DNA of 64,000 nucleotides from Sphaerolaimus hirsutus. Lineage: Eukaryota; Nematoda; Chromadorea; Monhysterida; Sphaerolaimidae. Both the position numbers and the translations under genes were made by a program. The notes beneath the pieces were generated by a model. The model had not been told where the DNA came from. It ran no database searches and saw only the letters and a program-made list of their open reading frames with translations. Positions 3,155 through 63,710 of this stretch are shown piece by piece (the first letter of the stretch is position 1; every line of letters begins with the position of its first letter). The stretch is from assembly GCA_964036195.1 (NCBI GenBank), contig CAXIWS010000520.1, forward strand, positions 1-64,000, read 5' to 3'.

Positions 3155-3418
3155 TAGTGATGTTAAAGGCACTGGGAAAAATGGCACCGCACCGCACACC
3201 GGCACCCCTCTCATCGCGTGAAAAGGGCACATCGCACCCTGGGGCACCGGCAAAAAATGGCACCGCTCCGCACCGGCAGCGGTGCCATTCTGATAAAAAT
3301 AGCACCGGCACCGGCAGGGCACCTCTCAAAATCGAAAGGGCACCGCACCAGCACCGGTGCTGGTGCCCTTCGGTGCCTAGCACCGGGGCACCGGTGCCCC
3401 GGTGCCTTTTCATCACTA
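3155..3418. mobile_element. hAT-like MITE with GGCACCGG motif arrays (family V)
   Basis: Ends read TAGTGATGTTAAAGGCAC and, inverted, GTGCCTTTTCATCACTA. The interior is almost entirely repeats of GCACCGGCACC/GGTGCCGGTGC. The flanks are G-runs (CTGGGGGG on both sides, offset by one), consistent with an 8-bp duplication but ambiguous in a homopolymer. The TAGTGATG end is shared with the GGCGCC family at 12534, 31515, 50913 and 54248, while the repeated motif differs. Confidence 0.75.
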
Positions 3419-3525
3419 CTGGGGGGCGTTCATACGTTCATAGTTAAATGTCACTTTAAAGGTGTGGATCGGTCGCATCGGGTATTTGTACTATGAGGAG
3501 ATTTTACCTATGTGTTTGCATCCAA

Positions 3526-4320
3526 CTCGTGCCAGTCCCGGACCCTGTAACATGTCCTGTAAAATGTCAATTGTCATGCAGAGTGTCAAACGTCATGGAA
3601 AATGCCCTGCAAAATGGCAACCGAGTTGTTCATTTCCAGGGCAGTTTCGATGACTTTTGCCACTTTGCATGACATTTTGACATTTGACATTTGCCATAAA
3701 TTTTCGTGTGGTACTGGGGCCAAACAGCCCCGGTCGGGGACCAAAATTTGTTGTATACCGAAAAAAAATTTTCTCACCGGGGTCGTTTGACCCCGACCGG
3801 GGACAATAACCACAAAGCATCAAAAAGTGCCATAAATTTTCGTGTGGTACCGGGGCCAAACGACCCCGGTCGGGGACCAAACTTTGTTGAATACTGAAAA
3901 AAAAAATTTCTCACCGGGGTCGTTTGGCCCCGACCGGGGACATTTCGATATTGCTGGGGACCGGACCCGGGCAAGATTACATGCACTATAAAAAAATACA
4001 GCGATTGACAAAAATAATAATGTAAAAAAAATGACAACCGCTGATCGCTCTGAGCCGCACAAAAATTTTTGCATGCACACTCACTACATGCCGGAGTACA
4101 CGCATGCAAAAATTCAGACAAATCCAACAAAAATTTTACACTCCCCCAAAGAAAATACATCAGAGCATGTAACCATCTTGCGAAAATTTTGTGCATGCTA
4201 ATTTGGTGATAATTCACCTAATTCACATGCAATTAACTGATAGACACCAATTATCAATTTTTGTAAAAATTTATTTTTTGCCGGGTACCGGTCCCCGGCC
4301 GGGACCTGTGTAAATAGCCA
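3526..4320. repeat. Repeat block with CCCCGACCGGGG motif and about 125-bp tandem unit
   Basis: Begins with a family-A-like end (CAGTCCCGGACCCTG). Two tandem copies of a unit of about 125 bp follow (roughly 3690-3820 and 3828-3945). Each contains CATAAATTTTCGTGTGGTAC, GGGGCCAAAC and the inverted pair CCCCGGTCGGGGACC / CCCCGACCGGGGAC. Further GTCCCCGG blocks lie near 3955 and 4290. Mobile-element boundaries are not clear. Confidence 0.5.
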
Positions 4321-5233
4321 ATAAAATGACACCATTTTACAAAAATTGTTAAAAAATTTTACAAAAAATCTAAATCATGCATGCAAGGCCAGACAAATGT
4401 TATAATTAGACCTGTACATGAAAAACCTGTGGCAAATTTTTCCATTATCTTTCAAAAGTTGCATGCAGTAGGTATTGTTAGCTAGCTGCAAGTGTAAAGT
4501 TACAATTATTGTCAGTAGGACTACTGGAGTGTGCTGGGCACATTTGTAAAATGTCAAGCAAAGTGTCAATTGTCATGCAAAATATCAAGTGTCATGACAA
4601 ATTTCAAGCAAAGTGGCAATTGTTATGACAAATGTCATGCAAAGTGTAAATTGTGTATCCGTATCTTGTGTTTTTGTATCCATGGTGTCTCTTGTATCCA
4701 AATCTTATGTTTTTGTTTCCAAATGTTCACATAAGATTTGGATTCAACAACAACATAATTTGGATACAAAACATAAGATTTAAAAATAACCCATAAGATT
4801 TGGATACAATTTGCTTGACAATTGACAATTTAGTTTATATTTGTCATGCCAATTGACAGTTTACTTTACATTGTCATGACAATTGACACTTTCCATGACA
4901 TATTACGTGACATTTGACACTTTACAAACTTTGGGACTGTTCCCAGATTTATGAATAAACAGGTAGAGACTCAAGCAATGATATAAAATTTTACAAAAAA
5001 ATACAAATTTTTATACAATTTTACAAAAATACAAATTTTTATACAATTTTACAAAAATTTTTACAAAAATTCAAATTTTTATACAATTTTACAAAAATAC
5101 GAATCTTTATACAATTTAACAAAAATTTTACAAAAATTCAAATTTTTATACAATTTTTATTTTTATTCTAAAATTTTTCCATTTTATTTTTATTTTATTT
5201 TTTTTTTTTTCCGAGATTTTGCCAACCCTGTTC
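4321..5233. mobile_element. Repeat with embedded family-A MITE and TACAAAAATT low-complexity tract
   Basis: 4321-4536 is closely similar to 45340-45547, including ATCATGCATGCAAGGCC and ACTACTGGAGTGTGCTGGG. A family-A palindrome follows at about 4537-4938, with CATGACAAATGTCATG blocks and TCTTATGTTTTTG against its complement. From about 4985 to 5220 there is a tandem low-complexity tract of TTTTACAAAAATACAAATTTTTATA. The block ends in GCCAACCCTG at 5233, the terminus type also seen at 8564-8724. Confidence 0.5.
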
Positions 5234-8357: not shown

Positions 8358-10833
8358 CTGGGAAAGTGGGATATATTTGTATTTCACCGTATTTACTGGA
8401 AAACTAATTACCCCTTGAATAGTTCCCCCTCAACCATGTCTGATGGAGAAATAATTTCCTGGGATATTATTCAAGTAAATATGGTAGTTACATAGCCAAG
8501 GTTCTTTGGCGGAGTTGTTGTGAAGTGCTTTGCCCACAGTGTCAAATGTGGTGGTATGATAACCAGGGTTGGCAAAATCTCAGAAAAAATAAAAATAAAA
8601 TGGAAAATTGAAGAATAAAATAAAAATAAAATGGAATATTGAAGAATAAGATAGAAATAAAATACAATTTTTATACAATTTTGCTAAAATTTTAGTAAAA
8701 TGAATTTTACTAAAACCAACCCTGGTTGTAACTACCAAAAGTTATTGGTACAAGGCGCAAAAATGTACAAAAACCTGTCGTTCTATTGGAAGTGCCGTTC
8801 TATTGGCGGTATGCCATTCTATTAGGAGAAATACGGTATCTATTTTATTATATTAAACACCCCAGGACCCAACTAAACCAACTTCTAACCAAAGATGCCT
8901 CAAAAACAGTCTGAAATCTCTGTTTGCCCCTCTCCAATTTGTCGCCATTTTTAATGCCATCCGCCCCATTCAATTTTTCCACGGCATTTTCATTCATGCA
9001 ATTGAAAATACCAACGGACAAAATCGCATACACTCCGGAAATTGTGAGCAGACAAATGTGAGGCCATAGTGAACTGATCAGCGCCTGAAATTTGGTGTGG
9101 ATTCAGTTACAGCAAATCCTCGAATAAGACCCCCTCTAACCCCCCCCTTGAATAACTCCCCCCTGCTTGCGAGGTGAGGAAAAAATACCCCCCCTTGAAT
9201 AACGCCCGCCTCTGGATGAAAACGATACAGTACAAAAATACAGAGCCTAGATAGCCTAGAGCAGCGACAGCAGATACATTATGTGTATGCAGTGTATACA
9301 CATCTTTTTATTGTTGTTCGACACTTGAATACCTGAATTACATCAGTTTACAGTCTTCCATAAAAAATAAACCCCCTGGGGGTATTTCGAGGAAATACAG
9401 TAGTATATGTGTAGCTGAGTTGCAAACTGCGACCAATATATACATAATGTACATTGCATACATGGTGTACATAATTCCAGACGGTGGTATTTCGAGGGGG
9501 GTTTATTTTTTCCCCAGCTCAAAAACACCTGGGGGTATTTCGAGGGGGGGGCGGTTAATTCAAGGGGGGGGGGGATATTTCGAGGAAAAACGGTGTGTAC
9601 TTATATTGAGCTTATAGTGAACATACATATAGTGAACTTTATACAAGAATGTTATTGTATTTTGATGAATAAAGGTACTACCGTATATTCTCGAATACGT
9701 CCTCCCCCAGGGAAGGAAAGGCATAACATGTAACAAGGTTTTTATGATGTGGAAAAACGGTTACCCCCTCCCCCTCGAATGCCACCCTCCCCTCAAAAAC
9801 TTGTGAAGAAAAAATAACTCCCCGAGGACTTATTCGAGGATACACGGTAAATTGTGCAAAGATTGTGCACCAAATAATCCAATACACATTTCTGTGATTG
9901 GGAAGAAGGAAAGAATTTTTTATTGAAATGGGATATTATAGATTTCGTTGTTGTCAGTGAACTTTTTGAAACATTTCGGCGTCTGGGAAACTGTCTACTA
10001 CCGTATTTCTTCTAATAGAACGGCATACCTCCAATAGAAGTGGACCTCAAATAGAACGGCAGGTTTTGGCACTTTTTCACCCACGAAAAAATAGGACGGC
10101 AGGTAAAACAATTGACAAAAAATAGGACGGCGCTATTTTATTATAATAAATACGGTATATTTTTGCTATTGTGCAAAATACCATGCTGAAATATCTTCAA
10201 TTACTCATACATACCATGATTATGAGATTTATGTGTCCAACAGTTTTAAATTTTATTGAAATGATAACCCATCCACCCGCGAAAGGCTAAGGCTGCGTTC
10301 ATTCAACTTTTATGAGATCACAAAAAAAAATTAAAAATTGTTCGCATGGAAATGGAATATTTTTTATGCCTAAGCCTTGATCAATGATCATGTGATCATG
10401 TGCCCAGAACAAACATAAAATTCCATAATTATTTAATCATGCAGACTAGATTACATGTTTTGTTGTTGTCTGTGTTTGTGGGGGGGGGGGGTGGGGATTT
10501 GTTCCAAAGCTGCAGCCGCTTTATGCAGCATTGTTAACTGGGGTACATAAATATCTACAACAAATACTCCCGACAACAATAGAAATATGTGATCCAGTGT
10601 GCATGATTACGTATGATATGAAATTGTATCTCTATCATAGACAATGTTCCATTTTCGTGAATTTGTTGGGGAAATAATAACCCCCCTGAAAATTTGCACC
10701 CTGAAAAATAAACCCCGGGGGTATTTCGAGACAATACGGTAATTAAATCTCTACAAAACTTGAATCTTTTTGACATTTTCTAATAAAAAAAATCTCTTAC
10801 CATTTTTTCAACGCCATCCAATTCATAAATCAT
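8074..10833 (-). CDS. Small two-transmembrane protein, function unknown (three exons)
   Basis: Reconstructed as join(8074-8357, 8883-9084, 10801-10833) on the minus strand, 172 codons plus stop. The start is ATG at 10833, giving MIYELDGVEKM before a GTAAGA donor. Residues about 13-38 form one hydrophobic span (LLTISGVYAILSVGIF) and the last 28 residues form another (AVIGFLLLTILVIVAYYYVLL). Between them lies a polar region of roughly 100 residues, rich in Asn, Asp and Lys. Exon phases agree (0, then 1), but exon 2 needs a weak AGAA|GTTGGT donor to join in frame, and a missing small exon is possible. I do not recognise the family. The two-span layout fits an integral membrane protein with a large loop. 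The introns hold several TACCGTATTT-type MITEs. Confidence 0.5.
8564..8724. mobile_element. CAGGGTTGGC-ended MITE in an intron
   Basis: Ends are CAGGGTTGGCAAAATC and, inverted, CCAACCCTG. The interior repeats AAAATAAAATGGAA and ATACAATTTTTATAC. The flanking 8-mers ATGATAAC and GTTGTAAC agree at only 5 of 8 positions. It lies in the second intron of the two-span protein gene. Confidence 0.55.
8883..9084 (-). CDS. Two-span protein, middle exon
   Basis: The acceptor AAATTTCAG precedes 9084 and the reading begins ALISSLWPHICLL, a membrane span. Two donors are possible: TTTG|GTTAGA (phase 0, ending 8890) or AGAA|GTTGGT (phase 1, ending 8883). Only the second joins the next exon in frame. Confidence 0.5.
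9111..10157. mobile_element. Cluster of TACCGTATTT-family MITEs in an intron
   Basis: At least four copies lie side by side: about 9111-9403, 9478-9592, 9679-9849 and 9999-10157. Each has TACCGTAT(A/T)TTC..-type inverted ends and CCCCC/GGGGG interiors. The last uses AATAGAACGGC in place of the CCCC motif, as does a fragment at 8758-8837. All fall within the first intron of the two-span protein gene. Confidence 0.65.
10801..10833 (-). CDS. Two-span protein, putative first exon
   Basis: An ATG followed by ten codons (IYELDGVEKM) up to a consensus GTAAGA donor at 10800, in phase 0 with the next exon. It is very short, so the call rests on the donor and the matching phase. Confidence 0.4.
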
Positions 10834-10917: not shown

Positions 10918-11383
10918 GGGGGCACTCCCAGACCCTGTAAAATACCATGTAAAGTGTAAAACACCCTGTATAATGTGTCATGTAAAACACCTTGTAACGT
11001 GTTAACTGTCATGTAAAATACCCTGTAATGTGTCAAATTTCATGTAAATACCCCTGTAAAGTGTCATTTGTATCGAAATATTATTTTATCTTATCCAAAT
11101 CTTATGTTTTTGTATCCAAATATTACTTTTTGGCATAATATTAGATTTGGATATGGTAAAATGAAATTTGGATACACATGACACTTTACATGACCTTTTA
11201 CATGATATTTGACATTTTACGGGGGTTACATGACACATGACATTTCACAGGGTCTTTTGAGACACATGACATTTCACTGGGTCTTTTACATGACATTTTA
11301 CAGGGTCTTTTCCATGACACACACCATTTTACAGGGTATTTTACACTTTACACGATCTTTTACAGGGTCTGGGAGTGGCACCA
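10918..11383. mobile_element. Fold-back MITE, family A, abutting a possible exon
   Basis: Ends CAGGGGGCACTCCCAGACCC (left) and, inverted, GGGTCTGGGAGTGGCACCAG (right). Arms are full of TGTAAAATGTCATG blocks. The inner TTTTACAG|GG and CCCT|GTAAAA of the inverted repeat look like splice acceptor and donor sites. Minus-strand coding-like sequence abuts it on both sides (ELTDAVP at 11382 and PDRVEYTND from 10917). Confidence 0.7.
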
Positions 11384-14907: not shown

Positions 14908-15414
14908 CAGAGTTGTTAAAAAGTACCCAACTTATTTTAAATTACAGATAAACGTAAAGTATTCCTTTTTACGCACCGCTGAGTACAGAAAACGTGGAGT
15001 AAATTTTCTTAATTTTATTAGTAAAATGAGGAAAATACTTCGTTTCACGGAAAACGTAAAAGTATTTAAGTCTTTTTGCAAGAAATTTTTTCCACCATTT
15101 TAACCTTCAAATTGAATATTTCATGCGCTTTTTGTCTATTTTCAGCTAGTTCTCGCTATGTATACACTCACATCGGCATTTTTGTCTACGTTACCCCATT
15201 TTTAGCGTTTTCTTCCAATTTTCCCTTTCTGTCTTGAAAGAGCCTAAATAAAAGCCTATCTAAACTACGTTTTCAGCACTCTAAGTACTGTCAAAAAGTA
15301 TACATAAAAGTGAGTACATGTACTTTTTCAGTGGAAATGTAACTCGAGTACTTGTACACAGTACTCGAGTATACGTATTTTCGTAGAAAACGTAAATACG
15401 TTTTAACAACTATG
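14908..15414. mobile_element. hAT-like element with AAACGTAAAGTA motif, copy Q1
   Basis: Ends CAGAGTTGTTAAAAAG and, inverted, TTTTAACAACTATG. The flanks CAGGCAAA and TAGGCAAC match at 6 of 8 positions. Arms repeat AAACGTAAAGTATT and GAGTACTTGTACACAGTACT. It shares its terminal sequence with the elements at 43009, 57324 and 62487. Confidence 0.7.
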
Positions 15415-16710: not shown

Positions 16711-19700
16711 CTAAAAAATTTGGCTTATGTACATTCTGAAAGCGACAAAAGTGTGCCGAAATAAAGTGACTCACCTTTATAATTTCCTGCGCTAAAATGC
16801 CTCCAATTATAGCGCAGACCGGACTTAGCTCCCCCTGACAATACCTGTGGAAATGGAAAAAAATTGGATGCCAAAACTGATGAAAATAGTTTCAAATTTC
16901 AAAAAGTGGAATTTTTTCAATCGACCTAATAATTTTCGCCCGAAAATATACATAGCCGAAAAATACAATCATACCCGTTTCTAATAAGAAAAAAAGTCAA
17001 ACAGACGTGACGAAGTGCTCTGGTCCGAATGCAATATCTTTTGGTTGCAAATGACACTGTTCTATGCCGTCAGCCCAAATTTGGTTAAAAGTGTCCGTAT
17101 CTTCGGGTGTTGGCAGCTTGCCAAAAGCGGATTTGTAGCGCGCCAGAGCTGCAAAGAAACTTTATGTAATCATGAACAGTTCACTCTGGATTATTACTTG
17201 CAAGTAGTCTTCCCTTTGGCACCCATTTCAGATGCAATGGAGGCACCTAATTATAAAAGTCGATAAGTTCAAAAACATAGACTTTGCGCAAAATGCACTT
17301 GGACCGAAAAAGGATGTCGTTAACCAAGTGGACTTTTTGACTTGTTGTCCAAAACACAATTTCTGAAATCAGCATCCACGATGGACATTCGACTTTCTTT
17401 CTTCGATTTTTCTCCACAAAAAGACCCCGGCAAAACAGAACTTATCGACTTAAATCGACTCAAATAAGCAACAGATCAAACTATTTATCTATAGCAATTT
17501 ATGATCTCGCAATTTAAATATATAAAATGCTGGCCAAATAATGGTTTGATGTCCCAGCTCGACTAACAAACATACAAAACAACAAACGAACCTTTTATCG
17601 CGTGATAAACGGGTGGGACGACTTTTTTGCAAGCATTTGTGTCGATTTTGCTGCTCCACGTTTTGCGGAATGCTTCTTTATACGATGGAAAAGACATCGT
17701 CTGCGTGTTATTTCGAATATATAAAATTGCAAACATATTTTTTTTAAATCAAAAATGACGAGTGTAGTAAAATTTGGTCGGTGTAGACGTAGAATTGAAT
17801 GGAATAAGATGTTTAGTGAGCAGTCATAGACAGTCAAAACACAGCACATGGTATAACTAAGCCGCATGTCGAATGCGGCCCGCATCATATGAAGGGTGTG
17901 CTTCTAAAAGTACCGATCTACAAAAAAACGATTTTGAGATAATCGCAATTGAAAGTTTGGAGTATGCAATACCCATACATGGGTATTGGATATGGGAATT
18001 TTGGGTATGGGTATTTCGGCCTTATTGTTGGGTATCAACATGCATGGGTATAATCATTGATTATACACATAACACTAGCTAAATACAATTTAGTGAATTA
18101 TATTTTTGTAGTACAGAAAATTTTAAAGGAACAAATTGGTAATAGCATGTAGATCGGTATTTTTTAAAGCACAAAATCAGACAGCTGTAGATCGGTACTT
18201 TTACCCATAATAAAAAGCACAAAATGAGTTTTTGCTGAATCGGACGCCGATCTGACATCGGTACTTTTAGAAGCACAAAAAATAATGTGCAGATCGGTAC
18301 ATTTAAAAGAACAATTTTGAAAAAAGTGTGTAGATCGGTACTTTTAAAGACACAAAAGCTGAAAAAGCTTGTAGATCGGTACTTTTAAAATTTCAAAAAC
18401 CGTATTTTGCTATTTTTTTTTGCTTTTTTCGACCCCCCATATCTCAAAATTGAATTTCGCACCCCCCACATATTTTATATATTTTTGAAGTGCATGTTTA
18501 TGGGAACCCCAAAAATGGTCCTAACTCAAATTTGAAAAATTTGTAGATCGGTACTTTTAGAAGCACACCCTTCATATGCAACAGCTGCAAATTTTCGATA
18601 TCAACATTCTAAATACAGTAAAAACACTTTGTATCCGATAGCTATTGACAATGCAACCACAAAAACTTCAAAATTCAAAACAAATTTCCCCCACCAAAAA
18701 ACCGAACGCTTTTCAAGTGCGAAATCTCTTCAGCCACAGCCTCATTTCTCTCAGCCATTTTCCTTCTTTTCTCAGCGGGCCCGTCCAATTGTATAGCAGA
18801 GTCCGCGTCGGTGCCGTCGTTCAGTTCCAACTCGGAGCCCCTGGTCGCGTCCGGCTTCGTTTTCGAGTCGTTCGACGATGTGTTACCGGTGGAGCTCCTG
18901 TGTTTACGGTGGAATTGTGCGAATTAATTACGATCTTTGGTTAGCATTAGGGTTCAAACGATATATCGTATCGAATATCGAATATCGGATATCGACCATT
19001 TTTTTATATCGAATATCGATATCGAAAATTTTGAAAAAATATCGAATATCGATATCGAAAATTTTGAAAAAATATCGAATATCGATATCGAAAATTTTGA
19101 AAAAATATCGAATATCGATATCGAATATCGACCATTTTTTCGATATATCGAACCTGTATTGTGTCCCCAAATTTACTTTTCATTTTCATTTTGAGATGTT
19201 TATGGTTGATCTGATGTGCTTATAGTATTGTATTTGATGAGTAAAAGTACAGTATTTATAATGTCATTGTTGTTGGAGTGCCTAAATTTGAAGCCAGAAA
19301 ACGCTGATATACTTTTTTTGCAACATGCCCTTAAGCAATTAGGTTAGGATGAACTGTAATATCTACCAATTGTCATTTGTCTGATACACTTTGATTCATC
19401 ATGCTTTTCTTCTATTTTCTACCATTGAGTGATGTAAAGCTTGTTAAAATAACTTGTACCATTCAAATTTCAGTAAAGAGATGATTAAACATGTGTGCAA
19501 CCAGATGAAAATACAATATGCCACTTGAAATATGCCTTGCTATACCAAAAGCATATCGCAATATCGAATATCGAAATATTGAATATCGAATATCGACCAT
19601 GTTTCAATATCGAAAATCGAATATCGATATCGAGGTTCCATATCGTATCGATATCGAATATCGAGTTTCAGAAAAAAATATCGAATATCAATATCGAAAA

Positions 19701-44013: not shown

Positions 44014-44199
44014 AGATATGCGGGAAGCACCTGCTCTGTGGTATACTGAAAGTTTGCGTCATAGCCTACTGGCATGCTTGTTGACAGGGTCGGCTGAACA
44101 GCCACCTCACCCCAATTGCAGTAGCGCTGGTCGTAGGTGGTGGTGCCGCCCAAACGCCGCACGCGGAAGTAACCCTTTTCGCCCCAGTCATAGCCCCAG
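44014..44199 (-). CDS. C1 protease exon with NSWG block
   Basis: Acceptor CCCCCCCAG at 44200. Completes SWGYDWGEKGYFRVRR, then LGGTTTYDQRYCNWGEVAV and a tail to LPAYLG. The donor CTGG|GTGAGC is chosen because the frame otherwise runs into a TACCGTATTT-type MITE. The tail is longer than in most cathepsins. Confidence 0.85.
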
Positions 44200-47100: not shown

Positions 47101-50100
47101 TGTCAAATAGTAATGTGTGAGCATGTGTTACATTGTGTACCTAATGTAATGAGAGTCTTAAAAAATTGGTTTTATTTGGATGGGATATGGTAGATTTCAT
47201 TGTGAACCATGAATCAAAATTCTGAGTTCAAATCCAATTTTATTGTATATGTAAAGTGCTGTATAACCACATCTATACAATGAATTAGAAATGAAATTTA
47301 AAACACAATTAGAAAAATCCCATTCTAAGTTAAATAATGCCTACATTAATAAATGAGTATATCAAATGCATTTTATTGAAGATGCAATTTCAGTTTGCAT
47401 TTTCAATGTGGGCCACCCTTCTTTTGACCCATTTGTATTGATGGCTATGTAACATGATACGTAACAGATGCATTCACACATACAATATAATTATAGTAAT
47501 AAAATAAACGCAGTGTTTCAAGTTAACACATGTTTTATGTGTATTTTTTTGGCAGTGTAACAGTCCAAAAAAATCAACACGCTCCCAAATTCACACAATT
47601 TTTCGCACACCGAAAACGGGAGCTGCACACCGGGTGTGCGTCATTAAGACAAAAGCGCTTTAAGACAACAGTAGCTTTAATAGAACAAAAGTGCACATGG
47701 AGACAAAAGTTCTGGGTCATGTCATGTTCCAGGTCGAAAAATATAAATAGACTTTCATAATTATGATAAAAAATATAAATAGATTTTGTAACTTTTTGGT
47801 GATGCAATTAGGCTGGAAGTATAGTAGTTAAGTAAAATTGACACAATGAACTTTCACATGAACCTCACTACCTATCTTCAAACACTACAGCGCTTTTGTT
47901 CTATTAAAGCTACTGTTGTCTTAAAGCGCTTTTGTCTTAATGGGATACCCCCCTGCACACCTTGTTTCAAGCCCTACCGGTTCAATGCTTGTGAGGCATT
48001 CCAATAAATATGTATGTCACAATGGTGATAAAAAGTCAACCTGTTTTTGACAATGAAATAATCCACACCATCCTCAGATCCATAGCCAACAACAGCAACT
48101 GCATGTTTGGCCTCAGATATACAGGATTCACCTCTTTCCAGGATGCCTGTTAGAGTACTTATGTGAAAAATTCAATTTGGGCTAGAATATTCTTTGTGAC
48201 ACCAGTCACAAGAACCCTGTGAATATTTGATCAAACATTTCTAGTTACCGTATTTACTTGAAATACCTCCCCCCTCTCGAAATACCCCCCTCAAAATGGA
48301 CACTATGAATTTATTAGCCCCCCCTTGAAATACCCCCCAAATTGACTGTGAACAGAACATACATGACAAAAGCTACTGTTTGTGATGCAGAACAGATGTT
48401 AAAAACAATGACTTAAACCTGTTTTACACCATCTACATACTTATTTAGGTCTATAGACTCTTATACATGGTACTTTTTGTTGCATGTTTCGACGTCAGCG
48501 TACGTTAAGCCGGAATTACAGCTCAGCGGCGTTTGACATGAAATGATGACGTCGTAAAATTGATAACATCAAAATAGACAAAGGTACAGCATTGAAATTT
48601 CAGAATTAGATAGTTCTAGTAATTGTGTGTAATGTCCCAAATTTTTTTTAACCAAATAATCATTATTTAAGTAGTTATTAATTGAACGTCAAAATTTTTT
48701 GGTGACGTAGAATGTTTAACGTGAAATGTTGATGTAGAATGTGTAAATTTCGACGTAAAATAAATAACTTATTAAATAATAATTTTTTTCTTAATTTTTT
48801 TGGGACATAACACACAATTACTAGAACTATCGAATTCTGAAATTTCAACGCTGTACCTATGTCTATTTTGATGTACCGTATTACCTCGAATTAACCCCCC
48901 CCCCTTGAATTAACCCCCCCTCGAAATACCCCCCCTAAATTTCGGCTGAGGAAATAATAAACCCCCCCCCCCCTTGAAATACCCCCCCTAAAATTGAGTG
49001 TAACGTGAACGTACATGACAAATACCGCAGTTTGTTATCTGTACAATGCAGAACACACGTTAAAACTGATGATTAAGCGACGTTAGGGAAGGGTTTTTGT
49101 GTATATACAGTTATATATGCCTATAAACACATATACATCTACGTAAATGTTTGATTTTTCTACGTCTGCGTATGGGGAATTTCCGAAAATTTCTGGCGAA
49201 ATAATAGACCCCCCCCCTCGAATAAACCCCCCCCCCCCCTCGAATTATCCCCCCCTCAAATTTTGCTGGCGAAATAATAAACCCCCTGGGGGTATTTCGA
49301 GGTAATATGGTAATCAATTTTACGACATCATCATTTCACGTCAAATGCCGCTGAGCTGTAATTCCGGCTTTACAAACAACATTTTGGTAATGGGAGTTCA
49401 AAAAATTTCTGGCGAAATAATAAGCCCCCCCCCCTCGAAATACCCCCCCCCTCTCGTTGAACCCCCCTCAAAATTCTTACTCTGAAACAATCACCCCCGG
49501 GGGGTATTTCGAGGAAATACTGTATTGTCATGCCTTCAGCAGCCGCACTACTTGAATATTACTCATCAAAATGAAACAGTACCCAACAGTAAAATAAAGT
49601 GACTGTACCTTGGCTGAGGAAGAACTGAAAGCTGTCCATAACATCCAACCCAGTGAGCACTGGTCCCTTTTGCAGCAGCTCCACAAGCAAGTCATCAGTT
49701 ACTTGTCCACCGGTATAATACACTTGATTGATCACAAATGCACCTGTCGTAGGTTTGGCACACTCCCCTGGCTGGGAAGTTTGGGAAGTGGCAGGAATTA
49801 TAAAAGTTGATGGTGATTTTCAGATAGTTTTTCAGTTTGGCTATAAATGAAATGGCTTGAATTTTGTGACTGAAATTAATGAAAATGCTGTGTGTCTAAC
49901 AATTCACAGTGTCATTGTTTTTTGTACATTTGAATAATTTTGCTAGCACTCGCTTTTTAGGAGCACACTAAGTCAAGGCAGTTTACAGGATTCCACCCCC
50001 CCCAAAAAAAAAATCTTAAAAAAACTTTATAGACTCATATCACAACTAGCATTATTGAAAAAATCTCTGGGAGATTTATATTAATAAAATCTCAGAAAAT

Positions 50101-50667
50101 TTCAGAAAATATAAGATTTTTATTTTTTCATGATTTTCTAGAAAGATTTAATTATATTTTCTTTTTGAGAGATTTTCTGAGATTTTTAAAAATATCTGAA
50201 AATCTCTCAAATTTTGATATTTATATTTATTTATATTTTTGCAGGTTTTATGTGAGAGATTTAATTATATTTTTTTCTTTGGGAGATTTTCTGAGATAAT
50301 ATTTAATTATATTTTCTGAAAATTGACGATTTTTTCAATGCTAATCACAACTCACAGGCAACGTGTATGGGGCGTACGCATTCTTAACTACAGGTGTGTG
50401 TGATTTGAGCCATTCAAACCCCTCGAGCGGCGTAAGACCCAAGCAATCAAAATTGTCACCTCCAACATCCCAGCAGTCCAGCATCCACTTTTCACTCAGG
50501 GGGATGGGGTTGCCACCATTGGTTATGCCCAGGAAGCCATTGAGCACGTGCAGCTGCGATTTTGAATTTTTTATTGTTGCATATTTGGGCGTAATTGATC
50601 AAAGTTTTTGTTCAACTCACTGAAGCCCACATAACACAGCTGCCACAGCCCTGCGAATTTTGAACAA
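44014..50667 (-). CDS. Papain-family (C1) cysteine protease, catalytic domain
   Basis: Five exons: join(44014-44199, 48041-48146, 49609-49771, 50356-50553, 50621-50667), minus strand, all phases consistent. The full catalytic set is readable: the Cys segment VQNSQGCGSC, the His segment KHAVAVVGYGSEDGVDYFIV, and Asn in KNSWGYDWGEKGYFRVRR, with PLSEKWMLDCWDV and EYVTGG-type QVYYTGGQVTDDLLVELLQK between. Cys-to-His spacing is about 140 residues, normal for cathepsins. Oddities: Cys is followed by VMW rather than the near-invariant W, and the CGSC block is one residue closer to its upstream Gln than usual. An extension beyond the domain (WGEVAVQPTLSTSMP .. LPAYLG) ends at a GTGAGC donor, so at least one more exon is missing. 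Signal peptide and propeptide exons were not found with certainty. It would act in lysosomes or be secreted (inference). Confidence 0.88.
44340..44698. mobile_element. TACAGTATTACC-type MITE in protease intron
   Basis: TACAGTATTACCTCGAATTA at the left and CGCGGTAATACGGTA at the right are inverted. The interior has GAATTATTCGAGGGGG and GCTATTTCGTCAGAAATTTT. A variant subfamily with TACC in place of TTCC. Confidence 0.7.
44699..45225. other. Intron stretch, partly Q-like repeat
   Basis: 44880-45080 has AGAGTTGATAGAATTACTGAG and GTAAACGTAAAGT blocks, like the start of Q2 (57324). A matching right end was not located. Otherwise nothing recognised. Confidence 0.4.
45226..45985. mobile_element. 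CAGGGTTGG repeat with family-A fold-back MITE
   Basis: 45226-45547 starts CAGGGTTGG and contains sequence shared with 4321-4536. The family-A palindrome at about 45548-45985 has GGGCATTTGTAAAATGTCATG at the left and the inverse at the right, with four ACATAAGATTTGGATAC units near the centre. Located in the last protease intron. Confidence 0.6.
46000..47641. other. Intron stretch without a recognised gene
   Basis: AT-rich, with no exon supported by family similarity. GTAACAGTGTG-type AC/GT blocks near 46920-47130 and 47500 (ACACACAC..TGTGTTAAC) look like a decayed repeat. Open frames on the minus strand at 46434-46893 lack features. Confidence 0.35.
47642..47942. mobile_element. Fold-back element with AAAGCGCTTTTGTC ends
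   Basis: CATTAAGACAAAAGCGCTTT and TAAGACAACAGTAGCTTTAA at the left are perfectly mirrored at the right. About 200 bp of loop. It lies 100 bp from the His exon of the protease. Confidence 0.75.
48041..48146 (-). CDS. C1 protease exon with catalytic His
   Basis: Acceptor TCTAACAG at 48147, donor ACAG|GTTGAC. Encodes GILERGESCISEAKHAVAVV, GYGSEDGVDYFIVKN. The Ser codon of KNSWG is split across the next intron (AG|C). Confidence 0.92.
48508..49369. mobile_element. Harbinger-like palindromic element T with TTA duplication
   Basis: Ends AGCCGGAATTACAGCTCAGC and its inverse, flanked by TTA on both sides (48505-48507 and 49370-49372). Palindromic arms include GTTTGACATGAAATGATGAC and TTGAAATTTCAGAATT. 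A TACCG-family copy is inserted at 48874-49312 within the right arm. Confidence 0.8.
48874..49312. mobile_element. TACCGTATTACC MITE nested in T
   Basis: Ends TACCGTATTACCTCGAATTA and CGAGGTAATATGGTA. The palindromic partner arm of T gives the empty site: GATGTTATCAA expected, GATG-TA-ATCAA after removal with one TA kept. This supports a TA target duplication for the family. Nearly the same core recurs at 53110-53540. Confidence 0.88.
49609..49771 (-). CDS. C1 protease exon
   Basis: Acceptor CTTCCCAG at 49772, donor AAG|GTACAG. Encodes PGECAKPTTGAFVINQVYYT, DDLLVELLQKGPVLTGLDVM and SFQFFLSQ. It matches the region leading to the GPV..DA and SFQFY..G blocks of cathepsins. Confidence 0.9.
50047..50343. 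mobile_element. hAT-like MITE with AAAATCTCTGAGA motif, copy O1
   Basis: Ends TAGCATTATTGAAAAAATC and, inverted, GATTTTTTCAATGCTA, with the perfect duplication ATCACAAC (50039-50046 and 50344-50351). The body repeats AGATTTTCTGAGA and ATATAATTAAATCTC. It is inserted only about 10 bp inside the protease intron from the GTGAGT donor at 50355. Confidence 0.92.
50356..50553 (-). CDS. C1 protease exon
   Basis: Acceptor AATCGCAG at 50554, consensus donor CCT|GTGAGT. Encodes LHVLNGFLGITNGG, PIPLSEKWMLDCWDV and GFEWLKSHTPVVKNAYAPYT, the helix and loop region after the active-site Cys. Confidence 0.9.
50621..50667 (-). CDS. C1 protease exon with catalytic Cys
   Basis: Acceptor TTCACAG at 50668, consensus donor TTCA|GTGAGT. 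Encodes VQNSQGCGSCVMWAS. It starts in phase 1, so an upstream exon ending with one spare base must exist. Confidence 0.85.
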
Positions 50668-51975: not shown

Positions 51976-53609
51976 TAGCATTGAAAAAAATAACCGATTT
52001 TGAGAAAATATAATTAAATATTATCTCAGAAAATCTCTCAAGAAAAAACTATAATTAAATGTCTTGGTTAATTTTCGAAAATATAACTTAATCTCTGAGA
52101 AAATCTCTTGCAGTTCAAAAAAATCTCATAAAATCTCTCAACTTAAAGTATGATTACATCGATATTTCAAGGTTTTTTAACCATTGAGAGTAGAAATTAA
52201 GCACATTATGTGTTGTTAAACTTTTGTCACAATGACATATGATAACAGCATATTGTCTACTGACAGCATTTTGTACTACCATGTAGTATCTGAATAATGA
52301 ACAAAAATATGATTCAGGTACATTTTTCCTCGTAGAAGAATACATTGCTTTCACGTGTGACGATCCCACAGAAATTATCAGATGACTTTTTCACCAAAAT
52401 TTGGTAAAATTTCCAAAGCATGCTGTCAACTCTTTCGTTGTTAAAATAGCTAGAAGCCAGTGCACAAATTTACCCGGTGCACAAGTAAACAGCAATCTCC
52501 AGTGCCAATGTAGACCTCCGGTAGAGCCCCCGTACTTTTGAGTACTGGGTCTTCATGGGACTGCAGGGATTCAGTATGGTTCAGGAGGGGTTAAAACATA
52601 TTTACATTACACAAAAATACATATACTTGAGTACTAAGTAAATACATCTAAATTTCCTCTGAAAAAGTACCAGTACTCTCTTTTGTGTATAAAAGTGTGT
52701 GTCTTTTGTTTCAAATAATTTAACTCTAATGTGTCTTTTGTTTGAAAGTACTTGAGTACAGAAATTGTATTTCGGATTGACTTTTTTATTGGCGCTTTCA
52801 TGCCATAGAACAGAAAAAGGGGAGGAAAAACTACAAATAGTGGGGAAAATAGCCAAAAATGGGTAATAAACATAGTATGTTGAATTATCCCCCTTGAATT
52901 AACCCCACCCCTAAAATTAACCTCATATACCCCCGTGGGGGTATTTTGAGATAATATGGTAGTTAAAAATAAATGAAAATTCGCAAAAAAGCACATGAAC
53001 TAGTGAATTTGAAGGCGAAAATGAGCAAATATAGAGAGATTTTCTCGAGAGATTTTATCAATCAGAAAAAAATATAATCAAATCTCTCTGGAAAATCATG
53101 GAAAAAATATACCGTATTACCTCGAATTAACCCCCCCCTTGAATTAACCCCCCCCCCTCGAAATACCCCCCCTAAATTTCGGCTGAGGAAATAATAAACC
53201 CCCCCCTCGAAATACCCCCCCCCCTAAAATTGAGTGGAACGTGAACGTACATGACAAATACCCCAGTTTGTGATCTATACAATGCAGAACACACGTTAAA
53301 ACTGATGATTAAGTGACGTTAGGGAAGGGTTTTTGTGCATATACAGTTATATATGCCTATAAACACATGTACATCTATGTAATTGTTCGATTTTTCTACG
53401 TCTGCGTATGGGGAATTTCCGAAAATTTCTGGCGAAATAATAGACCCCCCCCTCGAATAAACCCCCCCTCGAATTATCCCCCCTCAAATTTTGCTGGCGA
53501 AATAATAAACCCCCTGGGGGTATTTCGAGGGTATACGGTAAATCTCAGAAAATCTTATATTTTCTGAGATTTGTTAAATATAAATCTCCCAGAGATTTTT
53601 TCAATGCTA
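51976..53609. mobile_element. hAT-like element with AAAATCTCTGAGA motif, copy O2
   Basis: Ends TAGCATTGAAAAAAAT and, inverted, TTTTTTCAATGCTA. The flanks GCCATGCC and GCCATACC match 7 of 8. It has a longer interior than O1 (52140-53030 unrelated), including a decayed TATATACTTGAGTACT Q-like patch, and a nested TACCG copy at 53110-53540. Confidence 0.82.
53110..53540. mobile_element. TACCGTATTACC MITE nested in O2
   Basis: TACCGTATTACCTCGAATTA at the left, CGAGGGTATACGGTA at the right. Close relative of 48874-49312 along its whole length, including GATTAAG(T/C)GACGTTAGGG. Confidence 0.88.
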
Positions 53610-54211: not shown

Positions 54212-55200
54212 CTGCATTTTTTATATTTTATAATTTAGCCTAATGTGTAGTGATGTAAAAGCGCCATGGCGCTGGCGCCAAAGCAAAAAGCGCGATGGTG
54301 CTTTTGGCGCTTGGCGCTATTTTGCTGTGGGCCAATGGCGCTTGGCGCCTTGCTCATAAAAAGCGCTATGGTGATTTTGGCGCTTGGCACCATTTTTCAC
54401 CAGGAACAAAATGACTGGCACTGGCGCTTGGCGCTAGCGCCAAACCAAAAAGGGCTATGACCATTATGGCGCCTGGCGCCATTTTGCTCTAGCGCCATTG
54501 GCACTTGGCGCTGGGGGTCGAAAAAGCGACATGGCGCTTTTTCGCTTGGCGCTATCATGCTGCGGGCCAATGGCGCTTGGCGCCTTGCCCATGACAAGCG
54601 CCATGCCGCTTCTGGCGCTTGGCGCCATTTTTCCCAAATGCCAGGAACAAACATTTTGTGCTCAGGTACAATTTATGGAGGGTGCACTGTTTCGCACATA
54701 AGCCCGTTTCGCACATACGCCCGTTTCGCACATGAATGAAACCCGTTTCGCACAGAGGGCTGTTTCGTACATAATTGATGCTGTGTGAGAAACAGGCCTA
54801 TGTGCGAAACAGGTGTATGTGCCACATGGGCGTATTTGCAAAACAGGCCATCTCCAATGCAACATCTCCAATAGTGCGACACCCTTGGGCACATTGTGTG
54901 AGTATTAAATAAAAATACTGAAATCGGCTGAGATTTTTATAATCTTTATGATGCAACATTTTCCAATAATGGGACCCTCTCCAATAATGCAACACTATTC
55001 AATAATGCGACACTCTCCAATAAAGTTGCCAAATCTCACCCTTTTTTTGAGTGCATGTTGGGTGCAACCACGTGTAATTATAATAATTGTGGTCAGCGCC
55101 AAATTCACCCACTTTAATTACCCTAGTTTTCCCGCCACAAAATACCAGTGCAATAATCTCATAATTGCCCATAATGTTTGCCTCAACCAGTGCTGTGCAC

Positions 55201-55586
55201 GGGGGTGCACTGATACGCACATGTGCCCGATACGCACATGTGCCCGTTTTTTTCACTTGACACTTTTTCAAGTGATTTTCGGATGAGTAAAGTGAAAAAA
55301 AGTTGCGCAATGACATTAGTGAACTTTTACCACTTCACTCATATCTGAAAATCACTTGAAAATGTGTCAAATAAAAAAAAAGAGTGAAAAATAGCCATTT
55401 TTCACTGTTTTTCACTTGACACATTTTCAAGTGATTTTCAGATATGAGTGAAGTGAAAAAAGTTCACTAATGTCATTGCGCAACTTTTTTCACTTTACTC
55501 ATATCTGAAAATCACTTGAAAAAGTGTCAAGTGAAAAAAACGGGCATGTGTGCCTATCGGGCAGATGTGCGTATCAGGCCTGCCCC
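55201..55586. mobile_element. Element R2 with GATACGCACATGTGCCC motif, nested in R
   Basis: Starts GGGGGTGCACTGATACGC and ends GCGTATCAGGCCTGCCCC, flanked by GCTGTGCAC on both sides (8-9 bp). The interior is palindromic TTCACTTGACACTTTTTCAA and TGATTTTC(A/G)GATATGAG. Its outer 12 bases match R while its inner motif differs. Confidence 0.88.
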
Positions 55587-55656
55587 GCTGTGCACACCCC
55601 CCCCCCCTAATCACCCGCCCGCACCTAGGCCTGTTTCGCACATACGCCCGTCTCAC

Positions 55657-56514
55657 TAACTATGGCAAAAAAAGATTCGAAAATTCGAAAATATTTTTGA
55701 ATTTTCGAATTTTTTCACAATTTTCGAATTTTTATTTCACCCCTGGAAAAAACACTTAAAAATCGATTTATTTTTTAAAAAATTCGAAAATTCAAAAATT
55801 CAAAAATTCAAAAATAGTTTTTGAATTTTTCAGGTAATTCAAGGCTACAAAATGCAGTCTTAAGTTCAGCGTGCTGAATAAAGCGACAATTGATATGCGA
55901 TGGGTCTGAAAAAGTTTCATGTAATGAAAAAAAAACATTAGAAAAACATTGAAATGGCGTCTATGGCGCAGCGTGGACCCCATCAATACCGTTTAGGAGT
56001 GCACGGAGCCACCCGAACAAAGAACCGCGGCGCTCTACTTCCGCGTATACAAATGCCGGTTCATCCAAAAAATCGCTCGCGGGTCTTCCGAGGGGCTTTC
56101 ACACAAACGTTTTTGGAAGACATTCAGCCCCAAATGGTGCCCCCCCTCGTTTAACCCCCTCTGAAAAAATATACTCCCCGGGGGTAATTCGTGGAAATAC
56201 GGTAATTGTTTCTACCATTTGTCATGTTAAAGTGAAGTGAAACTGTCATGTCATGCTTCATTTACTGTGAAATTAAGGTTAAAAGGGGCTCCAAACATGA
56301 AAACAGACCAAATACTGTGTTTTAAGCTTCAAATTCAATACTTTTCTAAAAAAATTCGAAAATTGCCAAAAAAGATTCGAAAATTCGAAAATTCGAAAAT
56401 TAAATTCGAAATTTGAAAATTAATTTGAGAAAAAATTCGAAAATTCGAAAATTCATTTCAGAAAAAACACTTAAAAAATTTAAATACTTTTTTCTGGGAG
56501 GTTTGCCATCGTTA
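55657..56514. mobile_element. hAT-like element with GATTCGAAAATTCG arrays (S), nested in R
   Basis: Starts TAACTATGGCAAAAAAAG and ends GGTTTGCCATCGTTA, with the perfect duplication CGTCTCAC (55649-55656 and 56515-56522). Arms repeat AAATTCGAAAATTCG. The middle includes a GC-rich patch (55950-56140) and a TACCG-family fragment ending at 56204. Confidence 0.88.
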
Positions 56515-57004
56515 CGTCTCACACATATGCCCGTTGCGCACATAGTATCAGTTATGTGCGAAACGGGCCTTTGTGCAAAACGGGTTTCATCCATGTGCGA
56601 AACGGGCGTATGTGCAAAACAGGCTTATGTGCGAAATAGGCCTGGCCCCAATTTATGTGCTTCCCAAAACACCCTATTACGTGAACCAGAGAGACATATT
56701 TTCCGTTTTTTTTTTGAAAACCCTGGTTTTGAATGAAAAAATACGCGCAAGTTAAACTGGAAAACGCTTATACTTGATGCGAGGTGCTAGCCACACCGTT
56801 TTTTGTTATGCCAAAATTCATTTCGACCGTGAACTTACGGCTAGGCGACAAAGGCTTGGCGTTAGCGCCAAACCAAAAAGCGCCATGGCGCTTCTGACGC
56901 TTGGCGCCATTCTGCTCTGTTTACACACGGGGTCGAAAAAGTGCCATGGCGCATTTGGCACTTGGCGCCAAAATCCTGGCACTTTTTACATCACTACTAA
57001 TGGG

Positions 57005-57323
57005 CCTGGAATTGGGTCCAAAACTTAAAATGCTTTTTACTCAAAATCACATTTTGTGAACTTGTCAAATTTAGAAGTAGAGGCCTCAATTAAAAACATC
57101 ATAAGATTGGCATTTTCGTGGGCGTTTTTTGTATTTGTTTGCAATTTTCTGTGTGACAAACCATGGTTGCGAACTTGTTGAGCCTGAGGCAAAATTTGCC
57201 CCCATTCTTCTTGTTTTCCTGGGTTATCTCCTTTGCGCGTTTGCGGAACAAATTTCTCCTGTGCGCTTCTTCCGCTTTTTTACCGCCGAAGTCCCTGCCG
57301 CGTTTTTCTGTGCGTTTGCCAAG
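57005..57323. other. Stretch without a recognised gene
   Basis: Unique sequence between C4 and Q2. No supported exon. Confidence 0.3.
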
Positions 57324-58266
57324 CAGAGTTGTTAGAATTACTGAACTTTTTTCAAAAGTATATGTAAATGTGAGTATTTTATGTTTACTCACCACAAAGT
57401 ATAGAAAATGTAAAATACCTTTTTTACTCGTACTCATGCGTAAATGTGAGTAAAATACATTTTCCCCAGGAAAATGTAAAAGCGAGTACTTACAAGCTCC
57501 CCTGGAAAACCTATTTTTACACTACTTTTTACATGTGAGAGTGAGTTTTACACTGAAAGACACAATATATGATTTTTTATATATAGTCATTTTTTAGTGA
57601 TTATTTAGTATTTTTTAGAAAAATGATATGATTTCTTCAAAACTGCTTTATTTTAGCAACAGAAAATTGTGATTTTAGCATCAAAAATTACATTTTCTCT
57701 GTACGCGTGTACTTTTAAAATGTACGCATAAAATTAAGTACATTACTTTTTGAAAACATACCGTATTTACTCGAATAATTCCCCCGGGGAATTATTTTTT
57801 CGTCAGACATTTTTGAGGGGGGAACTATTCAAGGGGGGGAATTATTCAAGTGGGGGAATTATTATTTCCTCAAAATTTTCAAGTATGTTTCTGTCACACA
57901 AAATACACATGTACGTCCAATTTCCATTCGTAGTGCACATTCCTTTGCATCCTTACACACCGAATGTGCTGCATTTGTATTCAATGTATCAAAAGAGGCA
58001 CTGCTATTTTGCTTGCTTTGATTTCATCGATTGTCTTTTTTATAAATGTGCATTATTTATTCTCCATCATTGTGGAGGGGGGATTATTCAAGTGGGGGAA
58101 TTATTTTTTCCTCACTCGTCTAGCAGGGGGGAATTATTCGAGGGGGGGAATTATTCAAGTGGGGGGAATTATTCGAGTAAATACGGTATGTGTATATGTA
58201 TTTACCGTGTACTCACGTACGCGTATTTTTCGAGTAAATGTACGTAAATACATTTTAACAACTGTG
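57324..58266. mobile_element. hAT-like element with GTAAATGTGAGTA arrays, copy Q2
   Basis: Ends CAGAGTTGTTAGAATTAC and, inverted, TTTTAACAACTGTG, with the perfect duplication TTGCCAAG (57316-57323 and 58267-58274). The arms repeat AATGTGAGTAAAATAC and TACTCACGTACGCG. Contains a TACCG copy at 57759-58188. Confidence 0.92.
57759..58188. mobile_element. TACCGTATTTACTCG MITE nested in Q2
   Basis: TACCGTATTTACTCGAATAA at the left and TATTCGAGTAAATACGGTA at the right. The internal motif is GGGGAATTATTCAAGTGGGG. The core contains CACTCGTCTAGCAGG and a 150-bp unique section. Confidence 0.9.
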
Positions 58267-61603: not shown

Positions 61604-62046
61604 GCCAATATGTTTACGTTTCCCCCCAAAAAATACCTGTACTCACACACTCGCATACTTTTTGAAAGTACGCGAGTACAGAAAACGTATTTTAAACAGG
61701 CTTTTTATAAGCTTTTTCAAGGTATAAAAAGGTGAAACATGCTATAGGGACAAAATATCCAAAATAGCACAAACATAGGCCAAAACACATCAACTAGTGT
61801 ATTTGATGGTGAAAAAGTTCGAAAATTGGTGATTTTGAGTGAAAATTCAGGCAATATTCCTTAAAAATACCCACTTTTACGTTTTTTGGGGGACAAAAGT
61901 AATTTACTCACATTTAAGTAAAAGTAAAAAAATGTGAGTAAAAGTAAAAATAAATACTTTACATTTTTTTGTACTCACCTGTGAGTAACAAATAAATACT
62001 TTACATTTTACGTTCGTAAAAGTTCAGTACCTTCAACAACTCTGCA
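61604..62046. repeat. Q-like repeat, right end only
   Basis: CACACACTCGCATACTTTTT, AAAGTACGCGAGTAC and AAAAGTAAAAATAAATAC blocks, ending TTCAACAACTCTG. The left terminus CAGAGTTGTTA is missing, so it is truncated. Confidence 0.5.
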
Positions 62047-62486
62047 AACTACTGGAATTGGGCCAAATGCATAAAAAATACAGAATGTCAGCGGGCGCTG
62101 ATATTTATTGGTATTGGTGGGCCATTTATTTCGCGCTATTTTAAGACTAAATGTTGAATGAACTGTATGAATCATCTGTTACATTACACTTTCAAAAGTC
62201 TTGGCTGAACTTGAAAAAATTGTTGAAAAAATAGTAAACTAGATAACAAACAATCTATCAAAAACAAACTGTTTGATCTGGCCCAATCCGCCTTCGCTTG
62301 GCCTTTCTCCATTTCGAAAAGTTTGTCTGCATCTTCCTGCGTGTACTCCGCGCACTCGTATTTTTTGGCTTCCAGCCAGGCAAAAGTGCCCAGCAGAACC
62401 TGTGTTTTTCGATTTTCAAATTGTGCGTTGCTATGCTGATAAATCTGTTTTATCCACGTTTGAGTACACCGGAACGTGGTGTAATC

Positions 62487-63710
62487 CAGAGTTGTTAAAA
62501 TACCGGTATTTTTGGAAAGTGTAAGTGTAAGTGTAAATACACTTTCCAAATTTTGAGTATGGATACCAAAAGTGTAAGGTATTTAAAAAATACCTAGGAA
62601 AGTGTAAAAAAGTGTAAGTGAAATTTTTTTTAGAAATAGCTCTCACTGTTGAGCATTAGAAAACACCGCTGTTCTCACCTTTATATCAATTTATTTATCA
62701 TTTTCATGTATTATTTCACATTTTACAGCCTTTTATGAAACATTTCAGACTGTAACAAATACTGTAGTGGTATGAAGTTCCCTAATAATGGCACTTTTTC
62801 AGTGTTGATATTTTACTGATTAAGCAATGCGATACACACAGTTTAAATGGAAGAATGGACATGCAGCAAATGTCAATGCAAAAGCCAGTTGACTTTGTGT
62901 CCAGCTGGTGAATTTCCATTGATCTTGTCCTTTTTACAAAAGTATGATGAAACTGCAGAATACCATGAGTACTGATCAAAGGTTGTACCGTATTTCCTCG
63001 AAATACCCCCCGGGGGGTGATTGTTTCATAGTGGTCCCGAGAGGGGGGGGGGTTAAACGAGGGGGGGGGGGGTATTTCGAGGGGGGGGGGTTATTATTTC
63101 ACAAGAAATTTTTTTTAAACCAAGTACAAAATTGTCGTCTGAAACGTACGCAGACGTCGAAAAATGCAACAAAAACCGCCATTTATAAGGTTCTGTAGAC
63201 TAATATTAGTATGTAGATGGTATGTACACTGTTCTAACGTGACACCGACATTGTTTTAAAGTGTGTTCTGCAGTACACTGAACACAAACTACAGTCATTG
63301 TCATGTACGTTCCCTTTACACTCAATTTGGGGGGGGGGGTATTTCGAGGGGGGGGGGGTGATTGTTTCATAGTGGTCTCGAGAGGGGGGGGGGTCAAACG
63401 AGGGGGGGGTATTTCAAGGGGGGGGGGGTATTTCGAGGAAATACGGTATATCAAATGCTAGTTTGTACATTTGCCATATTTTCTACATTCAATGCATTTT
63501 TTTGTACATGACCCTATTTTATGCTTTCTCAAAAGCATAAAACAGGGCCATCTGAAAGAAAAAAATACACTTTCTGTACCCGGGTATTTTGCCCAGGAAA
63601 GTGTAAAAAAAGTGTATGGGTATTTTATGAAAGTGTAAGTGTAAGTGTAAATATAAATACCCATTTACCTGGGTATTTCGGGTAAGTGTAAATACACTTT
63701 CGCAACTCTG
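62487..63710. mobile_element. hAT-like element with GTGTAAGTGTAAA arrays, copy H2
   Basis: Ends CAGAGTTGTTAAAATACCGG and, inverted, CACTTTCGCAACTCTG, with the perfect duplication GTGTAATC (62479-62486 and 63711-63718). The core is closely similar to H1. Contains a TACCG insertion at 62985-63448 absent from H1. It sits inside a coding exon. Confidence 0.94.
62985..63448. mobile_element. TACCGTATTT MITE nested in H2
   Basis: Ends TACCGTATTTCCTCGAAATA and its inverse. H1 gives the empty site: GTTGGAGATCAAAGGC against GTTG-TA-TATCAAATGC, equal in length after keeping one TA, supporting TA duplication. The core CGTACGCAGACGTCGAAAAA is shared with 33474 and 41791. Confidence 0.9.

Follow-up and report, generated by a model that had tools for sequence, protein, structure and literature searches.

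A 64,000-bp stretch of the genome of the nematode Sphaerolaimus hirsutus (contig CAXIWS010000520.1 of assembly GCA_964036195.1; hereafter the window) holds many transposons whose ends carry arrays of repeated short motifs. These elements are probably non-autonomous members of the hAT superfamily, similar to miniature inverted-repeat transposable elements (MITEs). They fall into about nine families (D, E, C, F, H, Q, L, O and S); their transposases would be encoded elsewhere, and the arrays would serve as docking sites. The elements have recognizable boundaries, 8-bp flanking duplications and a biased target; some of their insertion sites are also present in empty form; and the arrays stop at the element ends and start near both tips. 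Elements of this kind are already known: Mar, a hAT MITE family of Drosophila, is likewise said to consist of short, non-coding hAT derivatives. Here many array-bearing families lie side by side.

The evidence begins with the target-site duplications (TSDs). An earlier note, made from the sequence alone, had quoted exact 8-bp TSDs for 17 elements (Table 1). We recovered all 17, with one copy on each side of the element. Recognizable inverted ends adjoin 16 of them; the exception is R, which has no convincing terminal inverted repeat (TIR). Across these 16 the uninterrupted match between the two ends ranges from 6 bp (H1) and 7 bp (O1) up to 17 bp (D1 and D2). hAT tips are short and start with the sequence YARNG. 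A stringent scan for pairs with YARNG at both ends, a 9-bp TIR with at most one mismatch and a spacing of 100-7000 bp, low-complexity words being excluded, yielded 424 possible pairs in the window. Exact flanking duplications of 4, 5 and 6 bp occurred 3, 2 and 1 times. There were none of 7 bp, ten of 8 bp (chance expectation about 0.01) and none at any length from 9 to 12 bp. All ten 8-bp pairs were already among the elements of the earlier note; the listed elements that fail the stringent filters are D2 (whose TSD consists of two letters), D3, H1, O1, Q2, R and S. A cruder scan, which dropped the YARNG requirement and accepted a 12-bp TIR with up to two mismatches, gave 23 matches at 8 bp, compared with 0, 0 and 1 in three local shuffles. 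At 6, 7, 9, 10, 11 and 12 bp it gave 61, 28, 11, 6, 3 and 5 matches; the shuffles gave 2-6 at 6 bp, 1-2 at 7 bp and none at the longer lengths other than 8. We presume these other matches to be pairings within arrays and palindromes, such as also occur among the 8-bp matches.

The duplications also share a base preference. We tested three position pairs over 16 duplications, leaving out R. G at position 1 and C at position 8 account for 18 of 32 bases (p=4e-6) and T2 and A7 for 20 of 32 (p=2e-4). T4 and A5, the Buster-type preference, reach 8 of 32 (p=0.81). The duplications thus prefer GTnnnnAC, a Hermes-like target; Hermes prefers nTnnnnAn (PMC10368747).

Could some of these elements, R above all, belong to another superfamily? 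Merlin and P elements also make 8-bp duplications, and the tips of R (GAGGG and GGGGC) lie outside YARNG, its inverted repeat being weak. We consider such an origin very improbable, because both ends agree with YARNG in D, E, C, F, H and L, and the Hermes-like bias holds across the 16 duplications that remain when R is set aside.

Four elements have a recognizable site without the insertion. At the site of E2, both internal copies of D1 and also D2 run uninterrupted with a single TGCTATAC. At that of H1, other termini of family M, a repeat of another kind described below, carry GTATTTCG once at the corresponding point. Both of these empty sites are exact. For F1, which interrupts a local inverted repeat, the target is present once in the arm without the element, with six of eight bases in agreement. 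S interrupts one of the repeat units of R; once S and one copy of its duplication are taken out, what is left resembles an R unit, again with six of eight bases agreeing (by eye). The length of the duplications, their GTnnnnAC bias, the tips and the empty sites together back the earlier identification of hAT-type non-autonomous elements.

Where do the arrays lie? For every family we counted copies of its motif in the terminal 250 bp on either side and in the 250-bp flanks; L was scored with ACACAGAAA, and Q was scored with the H motif alone, which it lacks. The 36 ends scored for position are those of the elements other than Q1 and Q2. The matrix of motif by family is mostly diagonal. ATATCGA occurs 21 and 15 times at the left and right ends of D1 and 16 and 16 times in D2; GCGCCA occurs 23 and 21 times in C1 and 23 and 24 times in C2; and AAGTGTAA occurs 5 and 4 times in H1 and 6 and 5 times in H2. 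None of these motifs is found in the flanks. The E motif is sparser (1 to 4 per end), and one F end has an off-diagonal entry of six GCGCCA. The earlier note had named extension of the arrays beyond the paired ends as a refuting outcome. The arrays do not run past these ends: motifs are absent or rare in the flanks, and the larger flank counts reflect nesting or adjacency (E2 in D3, S in R, R in C4, O2 beside C2). Between tip and first motif, 30 of the 36 ends have a distance of 11-33 bp. At the other six the distance is 65 bp (S right), 59 bp (F2 right), 54 bp (O1 right), 55 bp (O2 left), 46 bp (R right) and 8 bp (H1 right).

The earlier note had further held that each family is built on its own single motif, repeated many times. 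A motif of its own is borne out within the window for D, C, E, S and R and is less exclusive for H, L and O. Over the whole window, 110 of 120 D motifs, 162 of 190 C motifs and all eight R motifs fall within their own family; the motifs of these three are strongly exclusive, those of F and O and the second motif of L, AAACTC, only weakly so. To judge repetition independently of any chosen motif, we used a motif-free measure of repetitiveness, with 196 control windows outside the listed elements (median 0.02, 90th percentile 0.15). D ends score 0.33-0.75, C 0.16-0.50, E 0.19-0.43, S and L 0.36-0.44, H 0.20-0.26, R 0.12-0.24 and O1 0.14-0.23. Lower values come from F (0.06-0.14), O2 (0.08-0.11) and Q1 (0.02-0.07); the left end of Q2 scores 0.14, and the figure for its right end takes in an M copy. 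Seven control windows reach 0.3: six belong to a pair of other array families (near 2.2, 11.2 and 45.8 kb for one, and 30.4, 30.8 and 42.8 kb for the other), and the seventh to an unassigned repeat at 5.0 kb. H1, S, R and E2 sit in other repeats, and for that reason at least one flank of each has a high score. The ends of D, C, E, S, L and H, as well as R and O1, clearly exceed shuffles, whereas F, O2 and Q1 are no more repetitive than many control windows, so that the statement for every family goes too far. Near the TIR, subterminal repeats are plain to see in D, C, E, S, L, H and O1; those of F and O2 are weak, and the left end of Q1 has none.

Three properties of the arrays go beyond the earlier note: an excess of CpG palindromes, arrays that run on one strand, and an internal tandem repeat in D1. 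CpG-centred palindromic hexamers number 23 against 5.4 expected in D, 14 against 2.8 in E, 83 against 14.6 in C and 15 against 1.8 in S. The excess in L is marginal and the numbers small (3 against 1.1). Ratios are lower in F (6 against 4.1), H (6 against 3.1), O (2 against 1.3), Q (4 against 1.9) and R (4 against 3.3), and outside the elements we count 106 against 125.3. Among D palindromes, GATATC ranks first (23) and ATCGAT second (22). As for strand, all 11 H motifs at left ends and all 9 at right ends lie on the plus strand, in two related copies; arrays are mirrored in R and F1 and of mixed direction in S, O, C4 and F2. In D1, a 605-bp segment that runs from left array through interior to right array is repeated exactly in tandem (19085-19689 and 19691-20295). 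This looks like an exchange between the element's own arrays and fits unequal exchange of direct arrays; an assembly error is also possible.

The arrays might instead be passenger satellites, simple motifs that arose close to the ends of non-coding elements, were enlarged by slippage and gap repair and travel with the element when it moves, with no binding role. The D1 duplication, the shared strand direction at both ends in several families, the F arrays (barely more than G/C tracts) and the existence of M, an array-bearing family that is not hAT, all suit that idea. We nevertheless hold it to be somewhat unlikely: against it stand a first motif near the tip at most scored ends, the palindrome excess in D, E, C and S and not outside, and the C family, in which C1/C2, C3 and C4 keep tip and array despite unmatched interiors. 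C1 and C2 share 92% identity wherever they correspond, also in their interiors; C3 and C4 match C1/C2 and each other in tips and arrays only (matches of at least 40 bp, E at most 1e-6).

A second alternative gives the arrays to a host factor rather than a transposase, for example a methyl-CpG or zinc-finger silencing protein, or nucleosome positioning. The observed/expected ratio of CpG is 0.85 outside the listed elements and is raised in D pieces (1.2-3.0), S (1.5) and E (1.1-1.3), and M has arrays of similar style. In C (0.91-1.02), however, the ratio is barely above background, and in H1 (0.25) it is far below. The motifs of H, O and R are not CpG palindromes, and motifs vary by family, whereas a single host factor would favour one. 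We therefore think this explanation quite improbable.

By analogy with Hermes, Tol2, Herves and Ac, it is plausible that the arrays are 'address' motifs bound by a transposase or a host factor. In the mechanism we favour, hAT transposases encoded elsewhere would move the elements, each insertion duplicating 8 bp of a GTnnnnAC-like target. The catalytic core would read the short, fairly generic tip. The BED zinc fingers of a multimeric transposase would dock cooperatively on the array motif, pairwise where motifs are palindromic (ATCGAT, GGCGCC, AACGTT, TTCGAA, CTCGAG). Slippage or unequal exchange would enlarge and shrink the arrays, and we propose that families would in this way drift to their own motif and copy number. 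A more elaborate version is a modular recognition code. In it, a generic hAT tip would be joined to an interchangeable array of CpG palindromes, often on one strand, that chooses the transposase and is sensitive to CpG methylation; exchange between direct arrays would duplicate or delete the interior and so give rise to array-only MITEs. We regard this version as unlikely.

How close are the known systems? Hermes of Musca domestica shares the 8-bp nTnnnnAn target; its left end has a repeat pair within bp 11-27, a quasi-palindrome to which two BED domains bind cooperatively (PMC10368747). Hermes differs in being autonomous and in having a right end to which no BED domain binds; the elements in the window have arrays at both ends, which reach 24 motif copies per 250 bp in C2, and the scanned reading frames include no transposase. 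Putative Hermes left-end motifs beyond 50 bp are dispensable, although some feature there, of unspecified nature, is still needed (PMC10368747). Medaka Tol2 has a repeated short subterminal motif whose mutation lowered excision, and a palindrome, AAGTACTT, immediately after the TIR (PMC10368747); the motif is a different one and the palindrome is not CpG-centred. Herves of Anopheles gambiae has a short motif at both ends that its transposase binds (PMC3143072), but it is autonomous and its left end has long-unit repeats. In maize Ac/Ds, several scattered subterminal repeats in both ends are recognized cooperatively (PMC10368747). Literature searches on the subterminal repeats and arrays of hAT elements and MITEs listed no paper that, judged by title and abstract opening, deals with CpG-palindromic hAT-MITE arrays. 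Similar arrays occur in repeat libraries, and this negative is no proof of absence.

Several observations weigh against reading these elements as hAT transposons with docking arrays. YARNG is present at only one end of Q2, Q1 and S (the others read CACAG, CATAG and TAACT), and O1 reads TAGCA at both; O and R, being off YARNG, are therefore filed as hAT-like by duplication length only. Q has H-type tips without the H array, and M is the densest array-bearing family and has an apparent TA target, so arrays are not a trait of hAT elements alone. The arrays of D, H, C1-C3 and L run in the same direction at both ends and do not mirror the tips. Long arrays at both ends are also not what Hermes predicts, given its BED-free right end and dispensable far motifs. 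The motifs of F, H and O and AAACTC are common elsewhere in the window. The share of motif copies within the own family is 10/13 for E, 12/20 for S, 20/34 for H, 19/39 for O, 23/162 for F, and 10/16 and 33/75 for the two L motifs. The repetitiveness of F, O2 and Q1 lies within the control 90th percentile. Finally, Pfam found no transposase or BED match in 202 distinct open reading frames (ORFs) of the 361 of at least 60 amino acids, so the transposase address is something we infer. The bulk scan covered 198 of the 244 ORFs of at least 70 amino acids (the 46 left out were mostly array-made or overlapping), and 30 chosen ORFs were scanned singly, four of them shorter and outside the bulk sets. 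Matches were to ThiF (2), Peptidase_C1 (3, one below cut-off), I29 (1) and I36 (1, E 1.8e-4). The ThiF, I29 and protease ORFs are scattered over kilobases in exon-like fashion, with transposons between them.

Table 1. Transposons and coding features of the window, in window coordinates. Tips and duplications are given where recorded.
Feature	Position	Strand	Tips and TSD	Arrays and remarks
D1 (hAT-like)	18948-20326	+	TIR TAGGGTTCAAACGATAT; TSD GTTAGCAT	ATATCGA arrays; exact 605-bp internal tandem duplication
D2	24996-25772	+	TSD TATAAATA	ATATCGA arrays; between two ThiF-matching ORFs
D3	36762-38165	+	TSD CTGGGCAG	Split by E2
E1	27559-28263	+	TIR TAGGGTTGG; TSD GTCACTGC	AAAACGTTTT arrays
E2	37331-37982	+	TSD TGCTATAC	Nested in D3
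C1	12534-13826	+	TIR TAGTGATGGAA; TSD GTCATGTC	GGCGCC arrays
C2	50913-51826	+	TSD GCGGTTAT	GGCGCC arrays
C3	31515-32460	+	TSD GTTAAATG	GCGCCA arrays; interior unmatched in C1/C2
C4	54248-56996	+	TSD CTAATGTG/CTAATGGG (7/8)	Holds R, which holds S; absent from earlier list
F1	22212-22666	+	TIR CAGGGACGTATCCAGG; TSD GTAGCCAC	G/C tracts
F2	26918-27343	-	TSD TCGGAGGC	Orientation opposite to F1
H1	43009-43782	+	Left tip CAGAGTTGTT; TSD GTATTTCG	AAGTGTAA repeats; sits in M terminus
H2	62487-63710	+	TSD GTGTAATC	AAGTGTAA repeats; M insertion inside
L	35027-41168	+	Tips CAACGATGG; TSD GTTGTAAC	ACACAGAAA and AAACTC(GAG) repeats; D3 inside
O1	50047-50343	+	Tip TAGCATT; TSD ATCACAAC	AAATCTC repeats; adjoins papain-family protease ORF
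O2	51976-53609	+	TSD 7/8 (by-eye comparison)	Absent from earlier list
Q1	14908-15414	+	H/Q-type tips; TSD 6/8 (by eye)	Left end without array; absent from earlier list
Q2	57324-58266	+	Tips CAGAGTTGTTA / CACAGTTGTTA; TSD TTGCCAAG	M copy inside
R	54678-56649	+	8-bp duplication AATTTATG; weak TIR	TTTCGCACATAAGCCCG-type array mirrored at ends; superfamily uncertain
S	55657-56514	+	Tips TAACTATGGCAAA / TAACGATGGCAAA; TSD CGTCTCAC	ATTCGAA arrays; nested in R
M (contrast, non-hAT)	62986-63448	+	TA-flanked	C-tract/TCGAA repeats; within H2; H1 is site without M
ThiF-matching ORFs	24705-25001, 25870-26085	-		Pfam
I29 propeptide ORF	57102-57521	-		Pfam
Papain-family protease ORFs	50344-50598, 47977-48171, 43950-44231 (below cut-off)	-		Pfam

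Some features of individual elements deserve mention. The right end of H1 is shortened, with about 11 bp missing relative to H2. F1 is inserted in one arm of a larger inverted repeat spanning 20850-22740; we rejected a further candidate at 20929-22160 (7/8 duplication), since its flanks are the arms of this repeat. The interior of L holds tandem arrays at 38576-39746 with units of 116, 30 and 27 bp. O1 lies about 12 bp inside an inferred intron of the papain-family gene (50040-50400), right after a GTGAGT-like splice donor that is left intact (by eye). In the nested stack at 54248-56996, where R lies in C4 and S in R, an M-type terminus is present within S at 56204. Copies within D, C, E, F, H, L and O diverge by about 8-18%, and several families may thus have been active at broadly similar times.

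Family M was also considered as a hAT family and rejected, given its apparent 2-bp TA target and the lack of an 8-bp duplication in 11 hand-paired copies. All 11 start and end with TA, and seven measure 420-463 bp. By length (H2 versus H1) the target is 2 bp; H1 has GA where M has TA. M tips (TACCGTATTTCCTCGAA) have 41 matches with at most three mismatches between 7881 and 63448, for example at 33474-33912 and 62986-63448. TCGA density is 8.9 per kb in M and 4.8 in the whole window.

Other repeats are present as well. Two nearly array-only elements, at 30427-30998 and 42491-42968, have CGGAAAACGG units and tips TAGGGTGTCAAC; we assign them to no superfamily because one copy has an exact 6-bp duplication and the other no clean empty site. 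The motif of Ac is AAACGG; among the motifs here we take only the CGGAAAACGG unit of the family at 30427-30998 to resemble it. Four copies of a TGTCATG-array repeat (2186-2534, 4531-4925, 10930-11380 and 45555-45990) have inverted TGTCATGTAAA-type arrays and G-rich tips; inspection of their ends, by eye only, showed no 8-bp duplication near 2.2, 4.5, 11 or 45.7 kb. No exact 8-bp duplication was found for the repeats at 4976-5230 and 8564-8724, with tips CAGGGTTGGCAAAATCTC. Rfam at gathering thresholds gave no match in the window. Exact searches of viral contigs returned five matches to the D tip, one to the C tip and none to the M tip. These look like chance: the five D loci lack ATATCGA, and the C locus is 60% GC with a single GGCGCC.

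How does a hAT transposase recognize its own ends when the same nucleus contains those of many relatives? To our knowledge this is not settled. The window offers a good test bed for the question. The tip CAGAGTTGTT is common to H and Q, which may be one family, and their arrays are not shared; AACGATGG is common to L and one end of S, and their arrays differ. With about nine hAT-type families in 64 kb, among them pairs with near-identical tips (H/Q and L/S) and different motifs, the window lends itself naturally to such comparisons. Were the arrays addresses, the BED domain would be expected to change together with the motif from family to family.

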